Origin: Aquipuribacter sp. SD81 | Lineage (GTDB): Bacteria; Actinomycetota; Actinomycetes; Actinomycetales; JBBAYJ01 | NCBI RefSeq assembly: GCF_037153975.1 | Contig: NZ_JBBAYJ010000019.1 | Span: 1-64,000 of the forward strand | DNA: 64,000 nucleotides | Reading direction: 5' to 3' | Shown: one piece after another, positions 54,448-61,635 of the stretch | Layout: each line of letters begins with the position of its first letter | How positions within the stretch are numbered: position 1 is the stretch's first letter | The notes under the pieces: model-generated | Told to the model about the DNA's origin: nothing | The model's input: only the letters and a program-made list of their open reading frames with translations | Database searches by the model: none | Position numbers and translations under genes: made by a program

Positions 54448-55014
54448 GTGCGCTGCCCGTTCTGCCGGTTAGGCGACTCCCGGGTCGTCGACTCCCGCAC
54501 GGCGGACGACGGCACGGCGATCCGCCGCCGGCGTCAGTGCCAGGACTGCGACCGTCGCTTCACGACCGTGGAGTCGGCGAGCCTCACCGTCGTCAAGCGC
54601 TCCGGCGCGACCGAGCCGTTCTCCCGGGAGAAGGTCCTCTCGGGCGTCCGCAAGGCGTGCCAGGGCCGGCCCGTCTCCGAGGACGACCTCGCCCTTCTCG
54701 CGCAGAAGGTCGAGGAGGCCGTCCGCCAGACCGGGGCGGCCCAGGTGGACGCCCACGAGATCGGGCTGGCGATCCTGGGGCCGCTCCGCGAGCTCGACGA
54801 GGTCGCCTACCTCCGCTTCGCCAGCGTGTACCGGGCCTTCGAGTCCCTCGCCGACTTCGAGGAGGCGATCACCCTCCTCCGCGTCGAGCGCGCCGCCCAC
54901 GAGCAGCAGCCCGAGCAGCAGTGCGCGCACCAGCAGCAGACCGCACCCGCACCCGTCCAGAGCACCGTCCGCACGCCGTCCGGCACGACCGTCACCCCAG
55001 GGGAGCCCGCATGA
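54448..55014 (+). CDS. nrdR: Transcriptional repressor NrdR
   Basis: NrdR senses ATP/dATP and represses ribonucleotide reductase genes. The 188-residue protein has the zinc ribbon RCPFC and CQDCDRRF, the helix with [17 protein letters not shown], and an ATP-cone (about 48-140) starting [16 protein letters not shown]. The last 35 residues are Gln/His/Thr-rich and variable. GTG 54448 gives the invariant M-x-CPFC start and follows GGGGAAGGGG. It is coupled to nrdJ by ATGA, and its own promoter carries two NrdR boxes, so it should repress itself together with nrdJ. Confidence 0.95.
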
Positions 55015-57884
55015 CCGACACGACCTCGTCGACCCGACAGACCGCACCCGGCGCCGCCGGCCTCACCGTCGAGCGGGTGTGGACGACCCCCGGCGTCCAC
55101 CCGTACGACGAGGTGACGTGGGAGTCGCGCGACGTCGTCCAGACCAACTGGAAGACCGGCGAGACGATCTTCGAGCAGCGCGGCGTCGAGTTCCCCGACT
55201 TCTGGTCGGTCAACGCCTCCTCGATCGTCACGACGAAGTACTTCCGCGGGGCGGTCGGCAGCGACACCCGCGAGCGGAGCCTCCGTCAGCTCATCGACCG
55301 GGTCGTGCTCACCTACACCAAGGCCGGCAAGGACCACGGCTACTTCGCCACCGACGCCGACGCCGAGGTCTTCGAGCACGAGCTCACGTGGATGCTCCTG
55401 CACCAGGTGTTCAGCTTCAACAGCCCCGTCTGGTTCAACGTCGGCACGCCCGCGCCGCAGCAGGTGAGCGCGTGCTTCATCCTCGCCGTCGACGACACGA
55501 TGGACTCGATCCTCAACTGGTACGCCGAGGAGGGGCGCATCTTCAAGGGCGGCTCCGGTGCGGGTCTCAACCTCTCGCGCATCCGCTCGAGCAAGGAGCT
55601 GCTGTCCTCCGGCGGGACCGCGTCCGGCCCGGTGTCCTTCATGCGCGGCGCCGACGCCTCGGCCGGGACCATCAAGTCCGGCGGCGCCACGCGCCGGGCG
55701 GCGAAGATGGTCGTCCTCGACATCGACCACCCGGACATCGCCGAGTTCGTCGCGACCAAGGCGCGCGAGGAGAACAAGATCCGCGCGCTGCGCGACGCCG
55801 GGTTCGACATGGACCTCGGCGGCGACGACATCACGAGCGTGCAGTACCAGAACGCCAACAACTCCGTCCGCGTGAGCGACGAGTTCATGCGCGCGGTCGA
55901 GAACGGCACGGACTTCGGGCTGCGGGCACGCTCCACGGGCGAGGTCATCGAGTCCGTCGACGCCCGGGCGCTGTGGCAGCAGGTCGCGCAGGCGGCGTGG
56001 GAGTGCGCCGACCCCGGCATCCAGTACGACGACACGATCAACGACTGGCACACCACGCCGGAGTCCGGGCGCATCAACGCCTCGAACCCGTGCAGCGAGT
56101 ACATGCACCTCGACAACTCCAGCTGCAACCTCGCGAGCCTCAACCTGCTGAAGTTCCTCACGGGCGAGGGCACCTTCGACGCCGAGCAGTTCGCGAAGAG
56201 CGTCGAGCTCGTCATCACGGCGATGGACATCTCCATCTGCTTCGCCGACTTCCCGACCGAGCCCATCGGGGAGACGACGCGGGCGTTCCGCCAGCTCGGC
56301 ATCGGCTACGCCAACCTCGGCGCGCTGCTCATGGCCTCGGGCCTCGCCTACGACTCCGACGGCGGCCGGGCGCTGGCGGCGAGCATCACGAGCCTCATGA
56401 CGGGGGTGTCGTACAAGCGCTCCGCGGAGCTCGCCGCCGTCGTCGGCCCGTACGAGGGCTACGCCCGCAACGCCGACGCCCACAAGCGCGTCATGCGCAA
56501 GCACCAGGCCGCCAACGACGCGATCCGCACCATGCACCCCATGGACCGCTCGGTGCAGGCCCTCGCGACCAAGGTGTGGGAGGCCGGCAACAAGACGGGC
56601 GAGACCAACGGCTGGCGCAACAGCCAGGCGAGCGTCCTGGCCCCCACCGGCACGATCGGCTTCATGATGGACTGCGACACGACCGGCATCGAGCCGGACT
56701 TCTCGCTGGTCAAGTTCAAGAAGCTCGTCGGCGGCGGGTCCATGCAGATCGTCAACCAGACGATCCCGCGCGCGCTGCGGAAGTTCGGCTACACCGAGGA
56801 GACGGTCGAGGCGATCGTCGCCTACATCGCCGAGCACGGGCACGTGGTGGACGCGCCTGGTCTCAAGCCCGAGCACTACGAGGTCTTCGACTGCGCGATC
56901 GGCCAGCGCTCCATCGCGCCGATGGGCCACGTGCGCATGATGGCCGCGGTGCAGCCGTTCCTGTCCGGGGCCATCTCCAAGACGGTCAACATGCCGGAGG
57001 AGGCGACGGTCGAGGAGGTCGCAGAGGTCTACTACGAGGGCTGGAAGTCCGGCCTCAAGGCGCTCGCGATCTACCGCGACAACTGCAAGGTCGGCCAGCC
57101 GCTGTCCAGCGGGTCCTCGGCCAAGGAGTCCGGCTCCACGACCGCGACCGAGGAGGTCAAGGTCGAGTACCGGCCCGTGCGGCGCCGGCTGCCGAAGAAG
57201 CGTCCCGCCAACACGACGTCGTTCACGGTCGGCGGCGCGCAGGGCTACATGATCAGCTCGTCGTACCCCGACGACGGCCTGGGCGAGCTCTTCCTCAAGA
57301 TGAGCAAGCAGGGCTCCACCCTCGCCGGGATGATGGACGCCTTCTCCATCGCCGTGTCGATCGGCCTGCAGTACGGCGTGCCGCTGGAGACCTACGTCGA
57401 GAAGTTCACGAACATGCGCTTCGAGCCGGCCGGTCTGACCGACGACCCGGACGTGCGCATGTCCGCCTCGATCATGGACTACGTGTTCCGCCGCCTGGCG
57501 CTGGACTACCTGCCGTTCGAGACGCGGTCCGCGCTCGGCATCCACACCGCCGAGGAGCGGCAGCGGCAGCTGGAGACGGGCTCGTACGAGCCGGTCGACA
57601 CCTACGACGCCGACGACGACGGCGAGTACGACGCCGACGTGTACGCCCAGTCCGCACCGGTCGAGCAGGCGAAGCCCGCCGCGCAGGAGGCCCCGGCGGC
57701 GCCCGCTCCCGCGGCCGCCGCAGCGCCCCTGCCCGCGCAGGTGCACTCCTCGGCCGAGCTCATGGAGGCGATCCAGGGCCGCACGCAGGACAGCCCCATG
57801 TGCCTGACGTGCGGGGTCAAGATGCGCCCGGCCGGCTCGTGCTACGTGTGCGAGGGCTGCGGCAGCACGAGCGGCTGCAGCTGA
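55011..57884 (+). CDS. nrdJ: Adenosylcobalamin-dependent ribonucleotide reductase (class II)
   Basis: NrdJ reduces ribonucleotides with a B12-derived radical, with or without oxygen. The 957-residue protein has active-site cysteines in QQVSACFIL (Cys155), [18 protein letters not shown] (Cys361 as radical Cys context, with Cys372), the [13 protein letters not shown] block and [18 protein letters not shown]. After an acidic and Ala/Pro-rich linker, the C-terminus ends in a cysteine cluster, [13 protein letters not shown] and a final Cys pair, likely metal-binding and redox-active in substrate turnover. The ATG overlaps the nrdR stop. A strong terminator follows. No class I genes are in the window. 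Confidence 0.95.
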
Positions 57885-57920
57885 TGCTGCTCTGAGGCGC
57901 CTCGAGGGCTGACGAGAGCC

Positions 57921-57959
57921 ACGCCGCCCCCGGTCCCGTCGCGGGACCGGGGGCGGCGT
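57921..57959. terminator. Bidirectional hairpin terminator
   Basis: An 18-bp perfect stem (57921-57938 with 57942-57959) and a three-base loop separate nrdJ from the convergent sirtuin fusion gene. Confidence 0.9.
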
Positions 57960-58003
57960 CGTGCCGGGCGGGCGCCGTTGTCCGGGACCGACGACGCCGG
58001 CAC

Positions 58004-60046
58004 TCACATGCGGGGGAGGGCCTCCACCCGCGAGGCCCAACCCCGCAGCGTGTCGTCCTCGCCGGTCCGGCAGGCGACGAGCGCGCACGCGATCGCGCAG
58101 GTGGTGTCCCGGTCGCCGAGGCCGGTGACCGTGCGCCAGAACGTGGCCTCGAGGTCGTCCGGAGCCTGCAGGACCGACCACAGCACGAACGGCACGGTGT
58201 CCCACGAGGCGCCCTCCTGCCCCGTCCCGAGCGCTCCGGCGACGGACCTCACGGTCTCGACGTCGTCACCGATCTCACCGCGGGCGAGCAGGTCCGCCGC
58301 GGCGGTGATGCCGTCGCGCAGCCGGCCGGGCGCGCACGAACCGTCGGCGGCGGCCAGCAGCAGCTCGCGCGGAGGCAGGTCGCCGCCGCGTGAGCCGGCG
58401 AGGACGGCGGCGACGGCGGCCACGACCGCGGCGCCGTCGCGTCCCTCGTCGTGCGCGTGCGTGACCACCGCCTGGCGGGCGGCGACGTCCCGCGCCGCGC
58501 GCCAGTCGCCGGCGTGCCACGCGCCGATGGCCGCGGAGCGCATCGCGGCGCCGTTGCCCCACGAGCCGCCGCCGAAGAGCGACGCCGACTCCCGTCGCCA
58601 GTCGGCGCCCAGCCGGACGGCCCACAGCAGCTCGCGCGACCCGCGGCCGTAGCCGCGACCGACGTCGAGGTGGAGGGCGAGGTGCTGCGCCAGGGCGTCC
58701 GGCGGCACCTCCCCGTCGTGGCGCCGCAGCACCGCCACGACGCTCGCGTGCTGCAACGTGTCGTCGGTCCAGCGGAGCCCTCCCGGCGGCGGGTCGGGCA
58801 AAACCCGCCGGGTGATGAGGTCGAGCGCGGCGCCGGCGGGCCCGAAGAAGCGCTCACCGTGGGCGTCGCCCACCGCGCAGCCGAGCAGCGCGTCACCGGC
58901 CCGGCGCGCCGCCGCCTCGACCGCCGTGTCGGCGCCGGTGGGTCGGGCTGAACTGAGCGGTGCCCACCAGCGACTGTGCCGCCCGGTGGCGGGCTCGGCG
59001 CCGACCTGGGGACGGGCAGGTGCGGTGCCCGCCCGCGGGAGGGCCGACGCGACCGTGCGGACGCCGGCTGCCGCCGGGTCGTCCGCTCCGTCGGCGAGGA
59101 GCAGCGGGAGCGCGACCTCCGCCGGCGCCCGGACGTGGACGTCGTAGCGGTCCGGAGCGCTGCCGTGCAGGGGCAGGCCGTCGGGCGCGGCGTGGTCCGG
59201 GTTCACCGCGACGGTGAGGGCACCGACGTCGCGTGCGTACCGCAGCAGCGCGCTCGCCGAGGAGACCATTCCGCTCGTCCCGACGGCGAGGAGCACGTCG
59301 CACGCCCGCACGGCGCGCCGGGCCTGCCACTGCGCGTCCAGGTCGACCGGCTCGCCGAAGAGCACGACGTCGGGACGGAGCGGGCCACCACAACCGGGGC
59401 AGGACGGGGGCTCGGACCAGGTTGCGGCGTCCGGGGCGCGGTGGCAGGCGGGGTCGCGCACGCACCGCGAGACGAGCAGCTGGCCGTGCAGGTGCGCGAC
59501 GGGCGACTCCGTCGGGCCGCCGCCGGTCGCGGTCGCCGTCACCGGAAGCCCGGCTGCACGCTCGTGCAGGTCGTCGACGTTCTGCGTGACGAGCGTGCGC
59601 CGGGCGCCGGTCGGCGCCGCCGCGAGCCACGCGGCGATCGCGAGGTGCGCGGCGTTGGGCCGCGCGGCCAGGATCTCCGTCCGGCGCGGCCCCCATGCCG
59701 ACCACACCGCGGGGAGGGAGCCGAGGAGCAGCCGACCGTCGAGCTCCGGCGGCAGCTCGTCGTCGGCGTAGGGCGACACAGGGCCGCCTGTGGCCGTGGC
59801 CGGCGTTCGGTACGCGGGCAGGCCGCTGGCCACGCTCACGCCCGCCCCGGTGAGGACGAGCACGTTGCGTGCAGCCGACAGCCGCTGCCGCAGGACGTCG
59901 GCACCGGCGAGCCGGGGGTCGGTCCGCGGGTCGACGCGGATGGTCAGGGCCTCCGGCGGCGGGTCCTGCGTCGCGTTCGGCAGTCTGGTGTCCACGAGCG
60001 GTGCGCCCTCCCCGGCGTCGGCGCGGACCGGTCCGCGCGCGGTCAT
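58004..60046 (-). CDS. Sirtuin fused to ADP-ribosylglycohydrolase
   Basis: The 680-residue protein joins two NAD-linked domains in one uninterrupted frame. The N-terminal sirtuin (about 50-320) has GAGVSVASGLPAYR (67-80), TQNVDDLH (154-161), the catalytic His in HLHG (about 186), a zinc site with Cys 195, 201, 216 and 219, DVVLFGE, and the NAD-binding VGTSG. A Pro/Ala-rich linker follows. The C-terminal ADP-ribosylglycohydrolase domain (about 381-680) has GCAVGDAHGERF, WTDDTLQ (about 426-432) and GDRDTTCAIACAL (about 644-656), the magnesium-binding sets of the ARH/DraG family. ATG 60046 is used; GTG 59995 follows a GGAGG and is an alternative. Expected partners: acyl-lysine proteins, O-acyl-ADP-ribose or ADP-ribosylated substrates. 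Confidence 0.88.
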   Translation of the reverse strand: MTARGPVRADAGEGAPLVDTRLPNATQDPPPEALTIRVDPRTDPRLAGADVLRQRLSAARNVLVLTGAGVSVASGLPAYRTPATATGGPVSPYADDELPPELDGRLLLGSLPAVWSAWGPRRTEILAARPNAAHLAIAAWLAAAPTGARRTLVTQNVDDLHERAAGLPVTATATGGGPTESPVAHLHGQLLVSRCVRDPACHRAPDAATWSEPPSCPGCGGPLRPDVVLFGEPVDLDAQWQARRAVRACDVLLAVGTSGMVSSASALLRYARDVGALTVAVNPDHAAPDGLPLHGSAPDRYDVHVRAPAEVALPLLLADGADDPAAAGVRTVASALPRAGTAPARPQVGAEPATGRHSRWWAPLSSARPTGADTAVEAAARRAGDALLGCAVGDAHGERFFGPAGAALDLITRRVLPDPPPGGLRWTDDTLQHASVVAVLRRHDGEVPPDALAQHLALHLDVGRGYGRGSRELLWAVRLGADWRRESASLFGGGSWGNGAAMRSAAIGAWHAGDWRAARDVAARQAVVTHAHDEGRDGAAVVAAVAAVLAGSRGGDLPPRELLLAAADGSCAPGRLRDGITAAADLLARGEIGDDVETVRSVAGALGTGQEGASWDTVPFVLWSVLQAPDDLEATFWRTVTGLGDRDTTCAIACALVACRTGEDDTLRGWASRVEALPRM

Positions 60047-60130
60047 GCTGCCCGACCCGACGGCCGGCCACGACCTCCGGCCGCCCGGAGCCGGGCGCCG
60101 CACCCGTCATCCGTCGGACGATGAGTTCCC

Positions 60131-61027
60131 GTGCCGGCGACCGTCCTCACCGGCATGACCACCTCGACGCTCGACACCGACGGCGCAGCCCTCACCTACG
60201 ACGTCCACGGTCCGCTGCCGACCGCGGACGGCCGTCCCCCGCTCCTGCTCGTCGGCCAGCCGATGGACGCGAGCGGCTTCGCGACGCTGGCCGGGCTCCT
60301 GCCCGACCGCACCTGCGTGACCTACGACCCGCGCGGTCTCGGCCGCAGTACTCGCACCGACGGGCGCGACGACCACGACCCCACCGTCCAGGCAGAGGAC
60401 CTGCACGCCCTCGTGCAGACGCTCGGCGCGGGCCCGGTCGACGTGTTCGGCAGCAGCGGGGGCGCCGTCACCGCCTTCGCGCTCGTCGCCGCCCATCCGG
60501 AGGACGTCGCCACACTCGTCGCGCACGAGCCCCCGCTCATCCCCGTCCTGCCGGACGCCACGGCGGCCGAGCGCGCCCGAGCCGCCGTCCGGGACGCCTA
60601 CGAGGCAAGGGGCTGGGGCGCCGGGATGGCCGCCTTCATGGTGATGACGTCGTGGCAGGGCGAGTACACCGACGCCTACTTCGACCAGCCCGCCCCTGAC
60701 CCGGCGCAGCTCGGCATGCCCGCCGAGGACGACGGCTCGCGCGACGACCCGCTGCTGTCGGACCGCTCGTGGGCGGTCAGCGGCTACCAGCTCGACGTGG
60801 ACGCGATCCGTGCGGCGCCGACCCGGGTCGTCGTCGCGGTCGGCGAGGAGTCCGCGGGCACGTTCACCGCCCGGACGTCCGAAGCGACGGCCCGGCTGCT
60901 CGGGCAGGACGTCGCGGTCGTGTTCCCGAGCCACCACGGCGGGTTCCTGGGCGGGGAGCACGGCTACGCGGGGCAGCCGGAGGCCTTCGCGCGTCGGCTC
61001 ACCGAGGTGCTGGCCGGCGGGTCCTGA
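60131..61027 (+). CDS. Alpha/beta-hydrolase
   Basis: The 298-residue protein has the alpha/beta-hydrolase order: GQPMDASGF with the oxyanion loop, TYDPRGLGRS, the nucleophile elbow VFGSSGGAVTAF (Ser about 113), a VVVAVGEES strand for the acid, and the catalytic His in FPSHHGGF near the end. The reaction is unknown. GTG 60131 gives the longest frame; ATG 60155 is an alternative with no better ribosome binding site. It diverges from the sirtuin fusion gene with an 84-base gap and converges on the GNAT gene. Confidence 0.78.
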   Translation: MPATVLTGMTTSTLDTDGAALTYDVHGPLPTADGRPPLLLVGQPMDASGFATLAGLLPDRTCVTYDPRGLGRSTRTDGRDDHDPTVQAEDLHALVQTLGAGPVDVFGSSGGAVTAFALVAAHPEDVATLVAHEPPLIPVLPDATAAERARAAVRDAYEARGWGAGMAAFMVMTSWQGEYTDAYFDQPAPDPAQLGMPAEDDGSRDDPLLSDRSWAVSGYQLDVDAIRAAPTRVVVAVGEESAGTFTARTSEATARLLGQDVAVVFPSHHGGFLGGEHGYAGQPEAFARRLTEVLAGGS

Positions 61028-61065
61028 GGCACGGGCCGGTCCGCGCCGTCACTCGCGGGGCCTCC

Positions 61066-61635
61066 TCACGTGCCCAGCTCGCGTCGCACGACCCAGCGGA
61101 CCCGTCGCGCGCTGTGCGCCGTCGTCGCCGACACACGCACGAAGCCCGCGCGCTCGAACAGCTGAACCGACCCGACGTAGCCGGCGACGCTGTCGACCCG
61201 GCCGTCCGCGGCGTCGACGGGATAGCCCTCGACGACCTCGGCGCCGTGGGCCCGAGCGTGCGCCACGGCACCGTCGAGGAGCTCGTGGAGCAGCCCCCGG
61301 CGTCGGTATCCCGGGCGCACGACGAAGCAGACGACGGCCCACGCATCGCGGTCGTCGAGCGTGGGGATCGTGCGGGAGCGCACGAGACGGCGGTAGGAGC
61401 TCCGCGGCGCCACCGAGCACCAGCCGGCCGGCTCACCGTCGACGTAGGCGAGCACACCGGGACCGGGCGGAACGCTGCACAGGTCCCGCAGGGCCGCCGG
61501 CCGCTCGGCGTTGGCAAGCCGGGCGTCGCGGTAGCTCATGCACCAGCAGGCGCCCGCATCCGGACGGCTGGTGCCGACGAGCGTGGCGGCGTCCTCGAAG
61601 CGGCCCACGGCCGTCACGACCTCGACGTGCTCCAC
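61066..61635 (-). CDS. GNAT-family N-acetyltransferase
   Basis: The 189-residue protein has the GNAT acetyl-CoA site in VCFVVRPGYRRRGLLHELLDGAV (R/Q-x-x-G-x-A/G type, read here as RPGYRRRGLL), a preceding GEPAGWCSVAPR strand, and a C-terminal QLFERAGFVRVSAT. Substrate unknown. GTG 61635 is chosen because TAGCGT (61648-61643) ends seven bases upstream, the leaderless pattern of this window; GTG 61644 overlaps that box. It diverges from the SulP transporter gene. Confidence 0.78.
   Translation of the reverse strand: MEHVEVVTAVGRFEDAATLVGTSRPDAGACWCMSYRDARLANAERPAALRDLCSVPPGPGVLAYVDGEPAGWCSVAPRSSYRRLVRSRTIPTLDDRDAWAVVCFVVRPGYRRRGLLHELLDGAVAHARAHGAEVVEGYPVDAADGRVDSVAGYVGSVQLFERAGFVRVSATTAHSARRVRWVVRRELGT

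Follow-up and report, generated by a model that had tools for sequence, protein, structure and literature searches.

In SirTM-macrodomain operons, a sirtuin ADP-ribosylates a target and the mark is removed again by an eraser encoded beside it (PMC7050489). Human ARH3, a member of the ADP-ribosylglycohydrolase (ARH) family, hydrolyses O-acetyl-ADP-ribose, and the glutamate of its Glu flap (Glu41) was reported to be crucial for activity (PMC7050489). Streptomyces coelicolor SCO5809 acts on RNA, from whose phosphate ends it cleaves ADP-ribose (PMC11833690). No description of a bacterial sirtuin-ARH fusion was found in the open-access literature searched, in agreement with the original prediction, in which this architecture was not recognised as a described system. 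Each half of the protein presented here belongs to a known family; it is the combination that is new.

The fused gene is located in the window, i.e. the whole stretch of 64,000 nucleotides that was analysed, which is part of a draft assembly (3.86 Mb in 69 contigs). Its features are the following:

58004..60046, minus strand: fused gene, 680 aa, open frame from ATG to stop
59087..59950, minus strand: sirtuin (SIR2) part, residues 33-320, with the stand-alone sirtuin gene of the congeneric genome G002 as homologue
59681..59695, minus strand: WGPRR, with Trp118-x-x-Arg121 at the Tyr-x-x-Arg acyl-selectivity site of SIRT5/CobB (alignment)
59483..59494, minus strand: HLHG, residues 185-188, with catalytic histidine 187 (sequence motifs, alignment)
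59384..59464, minus strand: four zinc-binding cysteines, 195, 201, 216 and 219 (sequence motifs, alignment)
58898..59086, minus strand: linker, codons 321-383 (63 codons), aligning to neither separate gene
58007..58897, minus strand: ARH/DraG-type domain, residues 384-680 (Pfam, alignment)
58844..58870, minus strand: GDAHGERFF, Glu-flap region, with Phe401 in place of Glu41 of human ARH3 (alignment)
58757..58771, minus strand: WTDDT, first metal-binding motif (alignment)
58100..58114, minus strand: DRDTT, second metal-binding motif (alignment)

A single open frame carrying both enzymes had been predicted, and the frame is indeed uninterrupted, with two Pfam domains well defined over their cut-offs: SIR2 (PF02146) at residues 67-262 (E 1.7e-24, 87 bits against a cut-off of 24) and ADP_ribosyl_GH (PF03747) at residues 386-664 (E 1.2e-39, 137 bits against 26). 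A GTG start further upstream, at 60103, would give an alternative product of 699 aa. The full zinc-binding sirtuin core was confirmed, the NAD-site motifs GAGVS (67-71), TQNVDD (154-159) and GTSG (256-259) being found at the expected places together with HLHG and the four cysteines, so that all family residues (GAGxS, TQNxD, the catalytic His, GTS and the zinc cysteines) are kept. The same holds for both ARH metal motifs, TDDT at residues 427-430 and DRDTT at 645-649. The G+C content at codon position 3 is 93-95% in the two domains alike, and dN/dS calculated against G002 (NG86) is ~0.28 for the sirtuin part and ~0.36 for the ARH part. Pfam matches, motifs and dN/dS values together indicate complete domains under purifying selection. 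The one-frame sirtuin-ARH structure is far beyond what a chance ORF would display.

From its sequence, the sirtuin half is predicted to be a CobB/SIRT5-like enzyme of the deacylase type. Its nearest folds are SIRT5 deacylase complexes and an archaeal Sir2 (Sir2-Af1), while the match to the NCBIfam CobB equivalog reached 126 bits of the 320 required. At the class III Tyr-x-x-Arg site, Arg121 is kept and the tyrosine is replaced by Trp118, a Trp-x-x-Arg pattern common to the fused sirtuin and those of G002 and G1017. The tryptophan at this position makes the acyl preference uncertain.

In the ARH half, the aspartates of the metal motifs are invariant across 16 aligned ARH sequences. In the Glu-flap column, Phe401 is found in the fused protein and glutamate in none of the 16 sequences, which represent an actinobacterial ARH clade. 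As the clade has no equivalent of Glu41, an ARH3-like hydrolysis of O-acetyl-ADP-ribose cannot be assumed. The DraG equivalog (TIGR02662) scored 19 bits against a cut-off of 337. Clade members share 37-45% identity over the ARH half and the same metal motifs, with FF replacing the Glu flap in most of them. In several Streptomyces-like loci (the genus being read from their gene content), the ARH relative is the fourth gene after nrdJ and follows a histidine phosphatase gene. The pair of ARH and histidine phosphatase genes a few genes after nrdR-nrdJ is conserved in L144, L145, L146, L147, L157, L252 and L253. In S. coelicolor, nrdJ is SCO5805 (PMC9739823); since SCO5809 follows four locus tags later, it is the probable Streptomyces member of the clade, by gene order and not by sequence. 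Judging from SCO5809 and its action on RNA ends, members of the clade are probably active despite the missing Glu flap.

The ARH of this clade is also found with another partner. In G1053, an ORF of 819 aa (L164:19-2475) has such an ARH as its C-terminal part, together with a VWA domain, suggesting that the ARH joins different partners, which weakens any argument from the fusion alone. A search of five genomes for KptA/Tpt1, a writer of ADP-ribose on RNA ends, gave no hit, so that an RNA-end substrate has no known local source there.

The two halves are separate genes in the closest relative. The comparison family consists of one genus with three genomes (G000, G001 and G002). G002 has a sirtuin orthologue (72% identity) beside the same nrdR-nrdJ pair, with a metallophosphoesterase gene occupying the place of the ARH half; its ARH orthologue (62% identity, or 67% over the ARH half in the clade alignment) is located on another contig. 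Both enzymes are present in G000 and G002, and both are absent from the third congener, G001, which has nrdJ. The metallophosphoesterase gene of G002 starts within ~10 bases after the sirtuin (L143:5267-8228), and this sirtuin is divergent from a gene recognised by eye as RtcB RNA ligase-like. Further away, G1017, from another family of the same class, has a separate sirtuin (60%) and a separate ARH (47%) on different contigs, and the 16 other genomes of its family gave no match at E up to 1e-20. A sirtuin without ARH was found in G006, and the Streptomyces ARH genes do not adjoin a sirtuin. ARH and MFS transporter genes are adjacent in both G002 and Streptomyces, but this was not taken for an ancestral order, since by eye the transporters look like members of different subfamilies.

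A count of lineages with the two-domain architecture confirmed it in the source genome and revealed no other fusion among the matches in the sampled genomes. The samples, partly overlapping, comprised 396 genomes of the order (searched with the ARH half) as well as 395 of the class and 396 of the phylum (searched with the whole protein), and no second fusion occurred among the matches listed. Among the matches listed for the whole protein in genome contigs, sirtuins dominate, probably via the common QNVDDLHE motif. No place in the plasmid and phage collections covered 80% of the query, viral contigs delivered sirtuins only, and the ARH alignment contained no viral relative. A profile scan of the retrieved loci detected no two-domain ORF besides copies of the fused gene. 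In a Pseudomonas locus (L071), an ARH gene lies ~6 kb from a sirtuin, which was taken as coincidence.

Comparison with the separate genes of G002 also indicates how the join arose. DNA similarity stops around codon 320 on the sirtuin side and resumes around codon 384, which aligns with the ARH start ATG of G002. Out of 543 coding windows, only 1.3% have a GC3 minus GC2 as low as that of the linker, and GC3 goes down to 0.73-0.80 at codons 342-386. The linker has no in-frame ATG, GTG or TTG, and neither has the whole of codons 324-391; only GTG 392, within the first ARH motif, could serve as the next start in this frame, and none of the GTG starts in shifted frames leads into the ARH reading. 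The ARH is therefore probably made only as part of the fusion. Considering that the linker is unalignable, displays a non-coding-like codon composition and has no start codon, the sequence looks as if two entire genes had run together across DNA that used to be intergenic. The join appears genuine, though of recent date. In an AlphaFold2 model (25 sequences, mean pLDDT 80, pTM 0.57), both domains are mostly above pLDDT 85, while residues 321-371 are below 50 and predicted to be disordered. Consequently, the relative placement of the domains is undefined and facing active sites cannot be claimed.

As had been predicted, the fused gene stands alone, with nrdJ (55011-57884) convergent on one side and an alpha/beta hydrolase gene (60155-61027) divergent on the other. 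The terminator that was placed beside it did not hold: the element at ~57921-57959 is an inverted repeat, rich in G+C, that lacks a T run, and neither a canonical terminator nor a sigma-70 promoter was found by scanning around the fused gene. Downstream of nrdJ, gene content differs in all three congeners (57884-61070 of the window compared with L142 and L143), which gives this stretch the look of a place where genes are often exchanged. A defence role for the fused protein was considered and dropped, as 0 families of the PADLOC models of known anti-phage defence systems were matched at E up to 1.

We infer that the one-chain product is a tethered two-enzyme protein. The best reading, to which a probability of roughly 0.4 is given, is a deacylase tethered to a hydrolase able to clear its O-acyl-ADP-ribose. 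The sirtuin half would remove acyl groups from lysine, consuming NAD and producing nicotinamide and 2'-O-acyl-ADP-ribose. The ARH half would hydrolyse O-linked ADP-ribose esters, most plausibly this very product, to free ADP-ribose and the acid, and the flexible linker would hold the hydrolase close to where its substrate is made, with no fixed channel between the two. Support comes from two complete domains, each under purifying selection, and from a sirtuin whose histidine, NAD and zinc residues are of the deacylase type, as are its nearest folds among the SIRT5 complexes, next to archaeal Sir2. The activity of ARH3 on O-acetyl-ADP-ribose (PMC7050489) and that of SCO5809 on RNA phosphate ends (PMC11833690) also favour this reading. 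Moreover, the fused ARH is the sole ARH of its genome, probably made only in this form, and the joint presence of both enzymes in G000 and G002 and their joint absence from G001 point the same way, within three genomes. On the other side, the activities of both halves are predictions; the clade lacks the equivalent of Glu41 that is essential in ARH3; hydrolysis of O-acyl-ADP-ribose by SCO5809 was not found in the open-access literature searched, and SCO5809 itself is assigned to the clade by gene order. The fusion occurs in one genome only, so that selection for coupling is not demonstrated, the sirtuin of G006 and the Streptomyces ARH genes do without each other, and the modelled linker is disordered with no defined interface.

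Nearly as likely, and ranked just below the tethered deacylase and hydrolase, is an accidental fusion of two active but functionally independent enzymes, co-translated after the loss of a stop codon and of the ARH start codon. The ARH would then go on with its former task, e.g. the clearance of ADP-ribose from proteins or the ends of RNA or DNA, and tethering would be nearly neutral. The single genome, the unalignable and non-coding-like linker and the separate genes of G002 and G1017 are all consistent with such an accident, as are the model, which defines no interface, the unrelated VWA domain fused to the same clade in G1053, and the known activity of SCO5809 on nucleic acid ends (PMC11833690). 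It would, however, require as a coincidence that chance paired two enzymes of NAD/ADP-ribose chemistry, and it sits less easily with their common presence or absence in the three congeners, few as these genomes are. A one-chain analogue of the SirTM-macrodomain pair, with the sirtuin half putting ADP-ribose on a target and the ARH half taking it off again, is unlikely. The operons of that pair act in this manner (PMC7050489) and both chemistries would be available within one chain, but the sequence is nearest to ordinary deacylases, with catalytic histidine and zinc site intact, and no gene recognisable as lipoate-protein or GcvH-L-like adjoins the fused gene. The neighbours are nrdJ and the alpha/beta hydrolase gene, where SirTM operons have a macrodomain and a lipoyl carrier. 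The deacylase-type residues and the lack of SirTM-type neighbours thus make writing and erasing less likely. As for the history of the gene, an ancestral fusion later split in the sister species is still less probable: just three congeners can be compared, and nrdJ is close to the ARH relatives of Streptomyces as it is to the fusion, but the two genes are separate in the outgroup G1017, and so is the sirtuin gene in G006. From few genomes, we infer one event for a fusion in this lineage and two for a fission in G002. Least probable is an artefact of assembly or sequencing by which neighbouring genes were run together. The draft state of the genome, the non-coding-like linker codons and the separate genes of G002 would fit an error. 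However, the halves share one frame with no ARH start at codons 324-391, so that an erroneous join would have had to mask a stop as well as a start; the GTG codons of the shifted frames offer no way into the ARH reading.

A fusion occurring in nature hints directly at a partner, and it places both reactions in a single construct, where they can be assayed and uncoupled. It bears on the fate of O-acyl-ADP-ribose in bacteria and on the role of many uncharacterised actinobacterial ARH proteins. A young, single fusion event is weak evidence of function, and the link of both enzymes in a pathway is hinted at, not proven. The further step, that an ARH lacking the Glu flap clears the product of its own sirtuin and thereby reveals one pathway for the separate actinobacterial sirtuin and ARH genes, is a doubtful one.

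Compared with CobB/SIRT5-type (class III) sirtuins, the fused protein shares the SIR2 fold, GAGxS, TQNVD, HLHG, the four cysteines and GTS, and differs by Trp118-x-x-Arg121, an insertion before HLHG and the C-terminal ARH. With human ARH3 it has in common the ARH fold, the TDDT and DxDT metal sites, the TH motif and GNGxAMR, whereas Glu41 is replaced by Phe401 and sequence similarity is only ~38 bits. The clade to which SCO5809 probably belongs displays the same metal motifs, and the neighbourhood of nrdJ in Streptomyces; the Streptomyces members are mostly single-domain proteins with a histidine phosphatase neighbour, while here the ARH is joined to a sirtuin. The protein of G1053 has a C-terminal ARH of the same clade, with an N-terminal VWA domain instead of the sirtuin. 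Finally, the SirTM-macrodomain operon likewise pairs a sirtuin with an ADP-ribose eraser, but it does so with two genes, a macrodomain rather than an ARH, a transferase-type sirtuin and lipoyl carrier partners (PMC7050489).
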